Shown: in pieces, positions 12,879-22,498 of the stretch
Position numbering within the stretch: position 1 is the stretch's first letter
How the letters are laid out: each line of letters opens with the position of its first letter
Assembly (NCBI GenBank): GCA_021816865.1
Contig: JAKAWX010000002.1
Span: 76,110-140,109, forward strand
From: Thermoplasmata archaeon
GTDB lineage: Archaea > Thermoplasmatota > Thermoplasmata > Lutacidiplasmatales > UBA184
Direction: 5' to 3'
DNA length: 64,000 bases
The notes under the pieces: model-generated
The model's database searches: none
What the model was told of the DNA's origin: nothing
Seen by the model: only the letters and a program-made list of their open reading frames with translations
Made by a program: the position numbers and the translations under genes

Positions 12879-14381
12879 TCACTCGCCCGCCGACGGGAGG
12901 CCCGGCGGTTCGGCCGTCGGCCTCGGCGCGCTCGCCTTCTGGCCGAGGACCTCCCGGCCGAACATGATGAAGACGCCCGCGAAGACGAACGCGGCCGCGG
13001 CGAGCCCGAACGACCATTCGAACGCCACGTACGTCGGGACCGACCCACCGAAGACAGTGATCGCGTACGTCGCCAGCAGCGAGCCCGACAGCGGCGCCCC
13101 GACCGAGCTGCCGATGTTGCGGAACACCGACGAGAGCGAGGTCGCAAGCCCCATCTCGCGCGGGTCGACCGTGAGGACGAGCATGTTGATCATCCCCGCG
13201 TTCACGATCCCGATCCCCGCGCCGACGAAGAACTCGACGATCCAGCGGGAGTCGAGCGGCTGGGAGGGAATCGCGAGGAGGAAGGCCGCCGCGGTCACGG
13301 CCGCGCCGATCGCAGTCATCGGGCGCGTCCCGATCCGCGAAACGAGGACTCCCGCGATGGGGGCGAAGACCAGCATGCCGACCGCGAGGGGAACGAGGTA
13401 GATGCCGGCCCCGAGGATGTCCTGCCCGTACCCCACCGGTTTCGGGAGCTCGAACAGGTAGGTCATCGACAGGAGGGCGAGGTACATGCCGAGGCCCGAC
13501 ACCGCGCCGACCACGTTCGTGACGAGGACATTGCGCTGGCGAAGGAGACGAAAGTCGAGGATCGCCTCTCCGCCTCGGGCCCGGTACCGACGCTCGAACC
13601 CGACGAGCGGCACGAGGAGGACGACCCCGGTCCCGAAGAGCCCGAGCGTGGGAAGGGCGGACCAGCCCCAGGTCGGGCCTTCCGACAGCGCGAGGACGAA
13701 GGCGGTCAGCGAGAGTCCGAGGAGGGCCGCCCCGACGTAGTCGACGCGCGTCTCCGGACGCCGGTAGGGGGACTCCCGGACGAAGAGAAAGACAAGGATC
13801 GCGAGCAGGACGACGAACGGGATCGCCGAGTGGTACGTCGTTCGCCAACCGTAACTGTTCGAGACCCACGCCCCGAGCGGGAGGCTGACGGCGAACCCGA
13901 CGCCGAACATCGCGCTCAGGAACCCCTGGAACCGCGGGACGAGCTCCCGAGGAAACTCCTCGCGGCCGAGGCTCATCCCGATCGGGAAGATCGTGAGTCC
14001 GATGCCCTGGAACGCCCGGGCAGCCACCATGAAGGGGAACGATGGGGAAAACCCGGTCACCGACACGCAGACGGCGTAGATCGCCACCACGATGCCGAGG
14101 ACCTTCTTCTTGCCGTAGATGTCGCCGAGCTTTCCGACCACCGGGCTCAGCGCGACGCCGGTCACGATGTAAGCGGAGAGGATGAGGCTCGCCTGGCCCA
14201 CGGTGATGTTGAACTCGGACTCGATCGCGGGAAGCGAGGGGGTCAGCATTCCTTCGACGTAGAGGACAAGGGTGACGAGGGCCGCGAGGATCCCCATCAC
14301 GCGCCAAGCGTACGCGCGGTCGAAGGTCTCCTTCGTGCGGACCCCGCTCGCGAGCGGGACCGATGTCGCCGACTCGGTCAT
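12879..14381 (-). CDS. MFS multidrug efflux transporter, 14-helix DHA2 type
   Basis: This 500-residue protein has about 14 hydrophobic helices. The loop between helices 2 and 3 reads 'GKLGDIYGKKKVLG', the major facilitator motif A (GxLaDrxGrkxxl). The length and 14-helix layout fit the DHA2 family of proton-coupled drug exporters (EmrB/QacA-like). Its ATG overlaps the stop of the upstream marR-type gene by four bases (ATGA), so the two are translated from one mRNA and the regulator very probably controls the pump. The substrate is unknown. The short cytoplasmic C-terminus is rich in Pro and Ala. Confidence 0.88.
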   Translation of the reverse strand: MTESATSVPLASGVRTKETFDRAYAWRVMGILAALVTLVLYVEGMLTPSLPAIESEFNITVGQASLILSAYIVTGVALSPVVGKLGDIYGKKKVLGIVVAIYAVCVSVTGFSPSFPFMVAARAFQGIGLTIFPIGMSLGREEFPRELVPRFQGFLSAMFGVGFAVSLPLGAWVSNSYGWRTTYHSAIPFVVLLAILVFLFVRESPYRRPETRVDYVGAALLGLSLTAFVLALSEGPTWGWSALPTLGLFGTGVVLLVPLVGFERRYRARGGEAILDFRLLRQRNVLVTNVVGAVSGLGMYLALLSMTYLFELPKPVGYGQDILGAGIYLVPLAVGMLVFAPIAGVLVSRIGTRPMTAIGAAVTAAAFLLAIPSQPLDSRWIVEFFVGAGIGIVNAGMINMLVLTVDPREMGLATSLSSVFRNIGSSVGAPLSGSLLATYAITVFGGSVPTYVAFEWSFGLAAAAFVFAGVFIMFGREVLGQKASAPRPTAEPPGLPSAGE

Positions 14382-15022: not shown

Positions 15023-15427
15023 ATGCCGCTCGAGTATACCGGGATCCGGGTTCGCGACCTCGCCCGGTCGATCCGCTTCTACACCGAAGGGCTCGGGTTG
15101 CGACGGGGCCCGACCGGGCGGATGTCGGCCGGCGGGACCTGGCAGGAACTCCACGATCCTGCGACGGGGGCCGTCCTGGAGCTCAACTACTACCCCGGCG
15201 ACCCGCCGTATCGGGAAGGGGACGAGCTCGACCACCTCGGGTTCCGGGTCGACGACCTCGACGCCACCGTCGCCCGGCTCGTCGCGCTGGGGGCCCGGCT
15301 TCGGATCCCCCCGTTTTCGGAGCCTCCCGATCGGCTCGCGTTCCTCTCCGATCCGGACGGTGTGTGGGTCGAGCTCGAGGAACGTCGGTCGGAGGAGCTT
15401 CCTCCGACCTCGCGACCGGGGTCATAG
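15023..15427 (+). CDS. VOC (glyoxalase/dioxygenase-fold) protein
   Basis: This protein of 134 residues is one vicinal-oxygen-chelate domain made of two beta-alpha-beta-beta-beta halves. It opens 'YTGIRVRDLARSIRFYTEGLG', the usual first strand and helix. A second half begins 'HLGFRVDDLDATVARL' and ends 'FLSDPDGVWVELEE' with the common Asp-Pro-Asp-Gly turn and a metal-ligand Glu. His and Glu positions allow a metal site. Such proteins include lactoylglutathione lyases, bleomycin-type resistance proteins and methylmalonyl-CoA epimerases; the substrate here is unknown. I chose the ATG at 15023 over an in-frame GTG at 15005 because the domain starts directly after it. It is divergent from the marR operon. 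Confidence 0.82.
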   Translation: MPLEYTGIRVRDLARSIRFYTEGLGLRRGPTGRMSAGGTWQELHDPATGAVLELNYYPGDPPYREGDELDHLGFRVDDLDATVARLVALGARLRIPPFSEPPDRLAFLSDPDGVWVELEERRSEELPPTSRPGS

Positions 15428-17354: not shown

Positions 17355-17753
17355 ATGGTCCGTATCGAGGTCCGCGCTCCGGCGGTCCAGCAGGTCAAGA
17401 CGCTCATGCGCGGCCAGAAGCCCGAGGTTGGGGTTCGCCTGTACGCCCAGCCGGGCGGGGGCGGGTGCTGCGGGGGCGGCGGAGGGGCCGTCCAGTTCGG
17501 GCTGGCCTTCGCCAAACCGCGGCCGGACGACGAGGTCGTTCGGATCGACGGCGTCTCCCTCCTCGTCGACCCGACCAGCGCGCCGTTCGTCGACGGGGCG
17601 ATCGTCGACTATGTCGAGGACCTGCGCGAGTCCGGCTTCAAGGTCACCAACCCGAACCTTCCCGAACCCGACGCGGCCGGACAGGCCGGCGGGTGCAGTT
17701 CCTGCGGCTCCAACGCCTCGAACGGCGGTGGCTGCGGCTGCGGGTCGCACTAG
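17355..17753 (+). CDS. HesB/IscA-like iron-sulfur carrier with Cys-rich tail
   Basis: This protein of 132 residues resembles A-type iron-sulfur carriers. The segment 'VGVRLYAQPGGGGCCGGG' (Cys38, Cys39) followed by 'VQFGLAFA' corresponds to the GGCSGxxY...L region with the first cluster ligand. 'RIDGVSLLVDPTSAPFVDGAIVDY' matches the conserved middle of the family. The C-terminal C-x-C is replaced by two cysteine groups, C-x2-C at 114/117 and C-x-C at 127/129, within a Gly/Ser-rich tail. It probably assembles or carries Fe-S clusters in the cytoplasm. A TGAGGAG ribosome-binding site precedes the ATG. It is monocistronic. Confidence 0.8.
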   Translation: MVRIEVRAPAVQQVKTLMRGQKPEVGVRLYAQPGGGGCCGGGGGAVQFGLAFAKPRPDDEVVRIDGVSLLVDPTSAPFVDGAIVDYVEDLRESGFKVTNPNLPEPDAAGQAGGCSSCGSNASNGGGCGCGSH

Positions 17754-20899: not shown

Positions 20900-21754
20900 A
20901 TGACGGCGTACGCTCATCCGGAAGTCCTCGTGGAGAACGACTGGCTCTCGGACCACCTCGAGGACCCGAAGGTCCGCGTGGCCGAGGTCGACTACGACCC
21001 CGTCGCGAACTACGAGCTCGGCCACGTGCCCGGGTCGGTGCTGATCGACTGGCGCAAGGAGATCAACGACTCGGTCCGCCGCGATATCCTGAGCGCGGAC
21101 GCGCTCACCGAGCTGCTCCGCCGCGCGGGCGTCGGGAACGACACCACGCTTGTCCTCTACGGGGACTTCAACAACTGGTTCGCGGCGTTCGCCTACTGGG
21201 TCTTCACCTACTATGGCGTCCCCCGTTTGAAGCTCCTGAACGGCGGCCGCAAGAAGTGGATCGCCGAGGATCGCCCGATCACGAAGTCGGTGCCGACCCC
21301 GGCCCGGGGGACGTTCACGGCCGGACCCGCCGACCCGAAGTTGCGGGCGTATCTCGACGATATCCGGGCCGTCCTCCCCGACGTAAAGGCCTCGAAGGTC
21401 CATCTGGTCGACGTCCGTGGCCCGAAGGAGTTCAGCGGGGAGATCACGGCCCCCCCCGAGTACCCGACGGAACACGCGCAGCGGGGCGGCCACATCCCGG
21501 GCGCGAAGAACATCCCGTGGGCCCAGGCCGTGCGGGACGACGGGACGTTCAAGTCCCGCGAGGAGCTCGCCGCGCTCTACGGGTCGCACGGGGTGACGCA
21601 GGGCAGCCCCGTGATCACGTACTGCCGCATCGGAGAACGGTCGAGTCACACTTGGTTCGTGTTGAAGTACCTGCTCGGATACCCCGACGTGCGCAACTAC
21701 GACGGTTCCTGGACCGAGTGGGGGAACCTCATCCGAACGCCGATCGAGAAGTAG
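20900..21754 (+). CDS. Two-domain rhodanese (thiosulfate/3-mercaptopyruvate sulfurtransferase)
   Basis: The protein has 284 residues and two rhodanese folds. The N-terminal half is inactive-type, with 'LGHVPGSVLIDWR'. The C-terminal half carries 'LVDVRGPKEFSGE', 'GGHIPGAKNIPW' and the active-site loop 'YCRIGERSSHTW', where the cysteine forms the persulfide and the C-R-x-G-x-R loop favours thiosulfate-type donors. It moves sulfane sulfur to acceptors in the cytoplasm. Its stop is 18 bases from the convergent end of a GcvH/TusA-like fusion gene, a natural sulfur-acceptor candidate. The start at ATG 20900 fits the TATA spacing and the domain boundary. Confidence 0.92.
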   Translation: MTAYAHPEVLVENDWLSDHLEDPKVRVAEVDYDPVANYELGHVPGSVLIDWRKEINDSVRRDILSADALTELLRRAGVGNDTTLVLYGDFNNWFAAFAYWVFTYYGVPRLKLLNGGRKKWIAEDRPITKSVPTPARGTFTAGPADPKLRAYLDDIRAVLPDVKASKVHLVDVRGPKEFSGEITAPPEYPTEHAQRGGHIPGAKNIPWAQAVRDDGTFKSREELAALYGSHGVTQGSPVITYCRIGERSSHTWFVLKYLLGYPDVRNYDGSWTEWGNLIRTPIEK

Positions 21755-21772: not shown

Positions 21773-22468
21773 CTAGCCGCGCGGGCGGCGCGGCACCGGG
21801 TGGACCTCCTTGCGCACGAGGAATAGGTAGAGCGACCCCTCCGTCCGGTGCGCGAGGACGACGTGGCCGGTCTGGTCGGACCAGCGGACCATTTCGATCG
21901 GGCTCGTCGGGTCGTCGGTGACGAGGAGGAGGGCCTCGCCGCCCTCGCGGTGGCCGAGCTCCTCGTTGAGCCGGGCAAGGACCGCCGAGCATTCGACACC
22001 GACCTCGACCACCTCGACCTCGGGGGTCGCCGGCCAGCAGCGGACGTGCTGGGCGCGGATCCGCGAGCGTACGAGATCGGCGACCTCGCGCGCCTCCCGC
22101 AGGAGGCGCCCGGGGTCGTCCGGCCGCACGGGTCGGACGCGCACGACCCACCCGGACCCGTACGGGTCGTCGTTCACGCCGCGGGGGTGCCGGACGAGCT
22201 CCAGGTTCCGTTCCACGATCGTCGCCTCGACCGGCAGCCGGACCGCGCCGACATACCGGACGCTCTCGACCGTCGCCACGCTCCGCCCTGTGGCGAGCGT
22301 CCCCTCGACCGGTCGGAACGTCAGCGAGCGGAACGGTCCGGCGAACGACGCGAGGACGGCGGTCACGCCGATGCGGGCGGTGCCCGCGCCGGGGTCGCCC
22401 TGCCACCAAACATCGTGCTCGAGGTCGTACCGCCGGTCGTCCGGCAGCGGGCAGCCGTCGATCTCCAC
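21773..22468 (-). CDS. GcvH-like domain fused to TusA-like domain, lipoyl lysine absent
   Basis: The protein has 231 residues in two parts. Residues 5-125 follow the glycine-cleavage H-protein fold: 'CPLPDDRRYDLEHDVWW', 'RIGVTAVLASFAGP', 'VATVESVRYVGAVRLPV' and 'NDDPYGSGWVVRV'. The lipoylated lysine of the ESVK motif is Arg71, so it cannot carry lipoate there. Residues 145-225 resemble TusA/SirA: 'VECSAVLARLNEEL' with Cys160 at the position of the CPxP cysteine (here CSAV), then 'LLVTDDPTSPIEMVRW' and 'YLFLVRK'. Together with the facing rhodanese this suggests sulfur-relay function (inference). Translation from GTG 22468 is chosen because a TATA-like box lies 22-30 bases before it; the open frame continues upstream but has no domain. 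Confidence 0.75.
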   Translation of the reverse strand: MEIDGCPLPDDRRYDLEHDVWWQGDPGAGTARIGVTAVLASFAGPFRSLTFRPVEGTLATGRSVATVESVRYVGAVRLPVEATIVERNLELVRHPRGVNDDPYGSGWVVRVRPVRPDDPGRLLREAREVADLVRSRIRAQHVRCWPATPEVEVVEVGVECSAVLARLNEELGHREGGEALLLVTDDPTSPIEMVRWSDQTGHVVLAHRTEGSLYLFLVRKEVHPVPRRPRG

Positions 22469-22489: not shown

Positions 22490-22498
22490 CGTAAATAG
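22490..22498 (-). promoter_or_regulatory. TATA-like box for the GcvH/TusA-like gene
   Basis: On the minus strand ctatttac and its flank lie 22-30 bases before the GTG at 22468, which both fixes that start and predicts a leaderless mRNA. Confidence 0.55.

Follow-up and report, generated by a model that had tools for sequence, protein, structure and literature searches.

The window, the whole 64,000-nucleotide stretch of DNA analysed, carries on its minus strand a gene (21773..22468, stop codon included) that starts with GTG and encodes 231 amino acids. Open reading frame, Pfam, AlphaFold and comparison with relatives identify its product as a fusion of two domains: an LbpA/H-protein-type domain with a C-terminal helix, about residues 1-137 (22058..22468, minus strand), and a TusA-like domain, about residues 151-220 (21809..22018, minus strand). 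Four codons, all on the minus strand, mark its key residues: Cys6, the N-terminal LbpA-type cysteine (22451..22453); Arg71, at the lipoyl-lysine position (22256..22258); Cys144, the C-terminal cysteine of LbpA type, shortly ahead of the TusA domain (22037..22039); and Cys160, at the sulfur-carrying position of TusA in the motif CSAV (21989..21991). A two-domain rhodanese on the plus strand (20900..21754; Pfam Rhodanese in two stretches), the proposed sulfur donor, converges on this gene with 18 bp between the stop codons. Its Cys242, in the motif CRIGERSS (21623..21625, plus strand), is the presumed active-site cysteine. A preliminary description made from the letters alone had given the same coordinates, strand, start codon and length for the fusion gene and had noted the convergent rhodanese; both held. 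At the site equivalent to the GTG, an ATG, GTG or TTG was present in 27 of 27 relatives. By eye, an A/T-rich stretch (22491-22497; minus strand TATTTAC) can be seen some 23 bases ahead of the start; it could be an archaeal TATA box for a transcript without a leader. The promoter pattern TTTAWAW gave no matches, and the plus strand of the upstream stretch, translated in one frame, contained no open frame.

Pfam matched GCV_H to residues 13-130 (E 2.8e-21) and TusA to residues 157-220 (E 5.3e-6), the latter at 26.6 bits, just missing the cut-off of 28.6 bits. We aligned the window protein with 25 of the 27 relatives, excluding L050 and L052 (alignment A1); each of these 26 proteins matched both domains at E <= 0.01. 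Against the PDB, the profile of this alignment retrieved H-proteins of known structure, the best at E 2.4e-21, along with E. coli TusA at E 0.0011; with a profile of the C-terminal domain alone, matches to E. coli TusA had E-values of 1.2e-4 and 1.3e-4. An AlphaFold2 model built on A1 (mean pLDDT 95.3, pTM 0.86) was searched against the PDB with Foldseek. The top matches were H-proteins (T. thermophilus 1onl, target TM-score 0.93, 1.4 A), followed by E. coli TusA (3lvj, target TM-score 0.87, 1.3 A). The structural comparison that the description had proposed therefore returned both folds rather than their absence, and its central reading, the joining of an H-protein and a TusA fold, was borne out by Pfam, profiles, AlphaFold and Foldseek alike. 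That the C-terminal half resembles TusA by chance is ruled out by fold, profile and conservation. GCV_H and TusA were the sole domains detected by Pfam in the window protein and in A1, with no output domain.

Distribution of the fusion and its pairing with a rhodanese

A survey of other Thermoplasmatota, also proposed in the description, revealed a conserved family of 92 distinct copies from three families of the phylum (f1, which includes the window's genome, f11 and f25), together with an f26 copy (L141) cut off by the end of its contig. Among 300 sampled genomes of the class, 230 gave matches to the fusion protein at E <= 1e-5, mostly via the H domain. Requiring E below 1e-33 and a match into the TusA part, and excluding G139 for its short C-terminal piece, left 75 fusion genomes (50 f1, 8 f11 and 17 f25). 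In a sample of 292 genomes from the phylum, nine, each of them f1, contained the full-length fusion; the remaining listed matches covered the H domain alone, and neither f11 nor f25 was among the matches listed. Phyla beyond Thermoplasmatota were covered by a pattern scan of GTDB representative contigs, which picks up close relatives and yielded 52. Those reaching the TusA part carried archaeal labels, except L056, labelled as a bacterium and 63% identical, and L087 from Desulfobacteraceae, a protein ending at 162 residues that matched residues 10-170 at 27%. Twelve plasmid records matched the fusion query, none covering 80% of it. One carrier, AcS1-45 (L041), belongs to the Lutacidiplasmatales genome set described in passages of Sheridan 2022 (PMC9287336).

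No published description of a GcvH/LbpA-TusA fusion was found among open-licence PMC papers, and the main text of a paper on archaeal protein fusions (PMC11237513) mentions neither TusA nor glycine cleavage. The LbpA and TusA domains are known; this architecture, its mostly lipoate-free state and its independence of sHdr appear to be undescribed.

The convergent rhodanese accompanies the fusion widely. Of 92 fusion loci, 86 had at least 400 bp of downstream sequence; a convergent rhodanese lay within 3 kb in 71 of these and within 250 bp in 67. At the 3 kb limit, the pairing was present in 57/59 f1 loci, 8/8 f11 loci and 6/19 loci of f25+ (f25 plus L060, L062, L067 and L068). The CRIGERSS motif was found in 94 of 94 rhodanese matches examined, some from overlapping loci; a copy in L104, outside this set, has CRVGERSS. 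Local synteny alone does not account for the pairing. Within f1, SUI1 was kept in 22/27 and AHSA1 in 34/47 loci with enough sequence, while neither occurred in f11 or f25+, yet f11, a distant family, has the rhodanese in every locus. Indeed, among the window's neighbours between 14 and 31 kb, f11 loci share the rhodanese alone. At the genome level, the co-occurrence that the description had suggested checking was found in 73 of 75 fusion genomes. Of the 12 f1 genomes of the 300-genome sample in which no fusion was detected, 5 were included for comparison, and the rhodanese was present in 3 of them as well; in one, G197 (L155), the contig stops just past the rhodanese, so a fusion there may be missed. 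The link is thus not exclusive, given the 6/19 loci of f25+, the two fusion genomes lacking a rhodanese and the three comparison genomes that have one.

Several other features of these neighbourhoods were observed. A small Gly/Cys-rich protein (window 17355-17753; CCGGGGGAVQFG, with the motif CSSCGSN) travels with the f1 fusion neighbourhood, and several f25+ loci carry, at varying places, a homologue of the glyoxalase-like gene that the window has at 15023. In f25 loci without an adjacent rhodanese (e.g. L093, L096, L101, L107), genes for a zinc alcohol dehydrogenase, a pirin and a MOSC-domain protein recur, as do those for GYD-domain, L-PSP-type, cupredoxin and GcvT-family proteins. Genome G211 has two fusion/rhodanese pairs. 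One of its fusion copies (L117, 2238 onward) is shortened within the H domain, and in L104 (2-1234) the rhodanese is interrupted by a glyoxalase-like frame, possibly through an assembly error. G073 also has two pairs; we do not claim these as proof that the unit is mobile, as SUI1 stands beside both copies.

Judging from gene neighbourhoods, thiosulfate is probably the source of sulfane sulfur for the rhodanese. In G254 (L151, 4765-7905), a sulfite-oxidase-type molybdopterin protein is encoded directly after a rhodanese homologue, and next to it comes a rhodanese/metallo-beta-lactamase protein that could be a persulfide-oxidising enzyme. In G293, a first rhodanese homologue pairs with the fusion (L156) and a second directly precedes a sulfite-oxidase-type protein (L152, 1130-3152). 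Such neighbours suggest that thiosulfate is cleaved to sulfite and sulfane sulfur, and for Lutacidiplasmatales, passages of Sheridan 2022 (PMC9287336) list both sulfite oxidase and a thiosulfate/mercaptopyruvate sulfurtransferase. The fusion is not regularly accompanied by sulfite oxidase: PF00174 matched in just 42 of 75 fusion genomes, as well as in 3 of the 5 without a detected fusion, and the window's own genome, which is 83% complete, gave no match. The best NCBIfam match of the rhodanese, below its cut-off, is 3-mercaptopyruvate sulfurtransferase, so the donor could differ from thiosulfate.

Kinship with LbpA and relation to sHdr

To place the H domain, a tree of 63 H domains was built from 35 of 91 fusion proteins, 14 LbpA-like proteins and 14 GcvH, with truncated and odd rows excluded. 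The fusion proteins formed one group (support 99/97) and GcvH another (99/85). Eight LbpA fell into the same clade as the fusion (99/98): six from the window's genome and other Thermoplasmatota, one from Aquificaceae (L070) and one from Proteobacteria (L071). Support for the exact sister of the fusion inside this clade was weak (81/68). The GcvH side of the tree also took in six other Thermoplasmatota LbpA-like proteins, among them the second one of the window's genome (L003). Seven of the eight LbpA grouping with the fusion are encoded within sHdr gene clusters; the 12 kb covered around the remaining one, L071, showed just a DsrE-type gene and the LbpA-type gene. Cysteines equivalent to Cys6 and Cys144 followed the same division, as they were present in 8/8 of the grouping LbpA, 0/14 GcvH and 0/6 LbpA-like proteins on the GcvH side.

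By tree and shared cysteines, then, the H domain of the fusion is nearer to sHdr-type LbpA than to GcvH. This replaces the original designation 'GcvH-like' and rules out a plain GcvH duplicate. In passages of Cao 2018 (PMC6067878), the lipoate-binding lysine is strictly conserved among 95 LbpA, and two strictly conserved cysteines, lacking in GcvH, are likewise reported, some archaeal LbpA excepted. The same passages liken the C-terminal cysteine to the sulfur-binding cysteine of SoxY, hold lipoate to be essential in LbpA and treat the role of the two cysteines as unproven.

The window's genome has an sHdr-like sulfur-oxidation cluster of its own, on contig C11 (L091, 4618-13660). It encodes two iron-sulfur proteins, two CCG-domain proteins, a flavoprotein, LbpA, DsrE, two lipoate ligases and TusA, with an ATP sulfurylase nearby. 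Subunit names were assigned from gene order and the known composition of such clusters. The locus also encodes a second LbpA-like protein (13277-13660), which has the lysine but no cysteine at the C-terminal position and in the tree forms a long branch on the GcvH side.

This cluster, together with the kinship between fusion and LbpA, would fit an arrangement in which the fusion feeds sHdr, taking sulfur from the rhodanese and giving it to lipoylated LbpA and sHdr. The marker sHdrB1 was detected in 23 of 75 fusion genomes (16/50 f1, 7/8 f11 and 0/17 f25), and one of the 5 genomes without a detected fusion had it too; the frequency of the marker within f11 also fits such a role. Against it, sHdrB1 gave no match in 52 of 75 fusion genomes, including all 17 of f25. 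A single marker can be missed in incomplete genomes; these negatives include genomes 97-100% complete, such as G009 (100%), G083 and G060 (both 98%). Nor did any locus examined show an sHdr gene next to the fusion, apart from LbpA-type matches of the fusion itself. Distribution and gene context thus rule out the fusion as a general part of sHdr, and we regard the feeder role as unlikely.

Cysteines and the lipoyl-lysine position

Conservation was assessed across 92 distinct proteins whose match began ahead of residue 70 and extended past residue 200, with duplicates and fragments (such as L069, L076, L117 and L141) excluded. Cys144 and Cys160 were present in 92/92. Cys6 was present in 90/92 and the other two are gaps: L067 begins at a contig end, and a longer reading of L104 does contain the cysteine. 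Cysteine is the majority residue at positions 6, 144 and 160 only, and at these it is invariant wherever sequenced. The mean frequency of the top residue was 0.70 for residues 137-220 versus 0.56 for residues 1-136. A CPxP motif is a hallmark of the TusA family. In the HMMER alignment, Cys160 falls on the CP-motif cysteine of E. coli TusA and is followed in the window protein by SAV; CPxP is absent from this protein, and residue 161 is proline in 1 of 92 copies. Cys160 was thus rightly described as the retained TusA cysteine in CSAV.

Position 71 is considerably less constant, with Arg in 73 copies, Lys in 17 and Thr in 2. The window protein indeed has Arg in place of the lipoyl lysine (ESVR for ESVK), so the term 'non-lipoylatable' applies to it and to 75 of 92 copies, not to the 17 with Lys. 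In these, Lys71 lies in an ESGKYFG context like that of LbpA, and lipoylation might be possible. All of the Lys71 copies also retain the TusA part, so that Lys at this position is not coupled to a C-terminus unlike TusA. In a quick tree of 91 rows (L067 dropped, column 71 omitted), with changes counted without direction, Lys versus non-Lys required 8 changes, 7 of them forced by well-supported branches, and Lys/Arg/Thr required 9. Arg71 was found in all 64 f1 rows, and Lys71 was confined to f11, f25 and their named relatives.

One account of this pattern is that the fusion was once lipoylated on Lys71, and still is in some lineages, the Arg71 forms being decayed or redundant. The 17 Lys71 copies with their LbpA-like context would be expected on this account, as would the Lys found at this position in 28/28 non-fusion H domains compared. 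Decay, however, fits poorly with Arg being uniform across the 64 f1 rows while the rest of the protein is conserved, and with Lys and Arg forms adjoining within f11 and f25. For a lipoylated carrier, it is also unfavourable that f25, the family richest in Lys, shows no sHdr marker. We therefore find this account very doubtful. Instead, the pattern of conservation makes cysteine chemistry, rather than lipoate, appear to be the conserved function of the fusion. The description had proposed a persulfide carrier using the H-protein fold as a docking surface. This understated the H domain: Cys6 and Cys144, neither of them mentioned in the description, are invariant and belong to it.

Three invariant cysteines could also belong to a sensor or adaptor with a regulatory task, binding persulfide sulfur (or a partner protein) and not delivering it to an enzyme. 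Such a role would suit the absence of CPxP and the lack of a constant acceptor enzyme in the neighbourhoods examined. A protein of two domains, neither an output domain, is a poor match for it, and both the linkage to a rhodanese that keeps its active-site motif and the descent from carrier domains favour transport. Regulation is accordingly an improbable explanation.

A proposed sulfur relay and its known counterparts

A putative persulfide carrier is the likeliest role of the fusion on present sequence evidence. We think it fairly probable that it is a sulfane-sulfur carrier derived from sHdr-type LbpA and TusA, loaded by the rhodanese and relaying sulfur internally from Cys160 to Cys144/Cys6 and on to an acceptor. 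From the modelled folds, the LbpA kinship, the invariant cysteines, the mostly absent and often exchanged lysine and the rhodanese linkage, we infer the following persulfide loading and order of transfer. Sulfane sulfur would be taken up on rhodanese Cys242, the most likely donor being thiosulfate, which would release sulfite, and would be passed as a persulfide to Cys160 of the TusA domain. Sulfur would then move within the fusion from Cys160 to Cys144 and/or Cys6, and the LbpA domain would present it to the acceptor. As most fusion genomes lack the sHdr marker tested, this final acceptor would not generally be sHdr. The lipoyl arm of ordinary LbpA would be dispensable, perhaps because delivery falls to the tethered TusA domain; if TusA stands in for the arm, the loss of the lysine would be explained. 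More tentatively, the fusion may be an LbpA without a lipoyl swinging arm, in which tethered TusA brings persulfide to the LbpA cysteines as part of an sHdr-independent thiosulfate relay.

The usual position of the fusion gene beside a rhodanese gene suggests an undescribed handover of sulfur from thiosulfate to other proteins. This would point to an undescribed sulfane sulfur route in Thermoplasmatota, including Lutacidiplasmatales of acid soils, many of them without a detected sHdr marker. If the relay exists, cysteines rather than lipoate would be the irreducible core of LbpA function. With the lysine mostly lost, the cysteines kept and TusA added, the role of the cysteines can be tested alone and in one protein.

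Each part of the fusion has a known counterpart. It shares with LbpA, as treated in passages of Cao 2018 (PMC6067878) and Tanabe 2023 (PMC10332631), the H-protein fold, the closest position in the tree, both cysteines and a sulfur-related context. Unlike LbpA, it mostly has Arg at the lipoyl lysine, carries a TusA domain and is encoded outside the sHdr cluster, many of its genomes having no sHdr marker. GcvH (PF01597) has the same fold; it forms a separate branch, lacks Cys6 and Cys144 and has the lysine. The similarity to TusA (PF01206; E. coli 3lvj and 1dcj) extends to the fold, the position of the sulfur-carrying cysteine and an acidic DDP stretch, while the fusion differs in having CSAV for CPxP and a covalently attached LbpA domain, with the window protein falling below the Pfam cut-off. 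A parallel relay is that of Hyphomicrobium, where, according to passages of PMC11582611 and PMC6067878, a rhodanese, DsrE3C and possibly TusA deliver sulfur to sHdr-LbpA. As in our proposal, sulfur enters through a rhodanese and passes via a TusA-type carrier to an LbpA-type carrier downstream. In contrast to the relay portrayed there, the pair described here is kept in genomes where sHdr was not found, and two of the stations are joined in one polypeptide.
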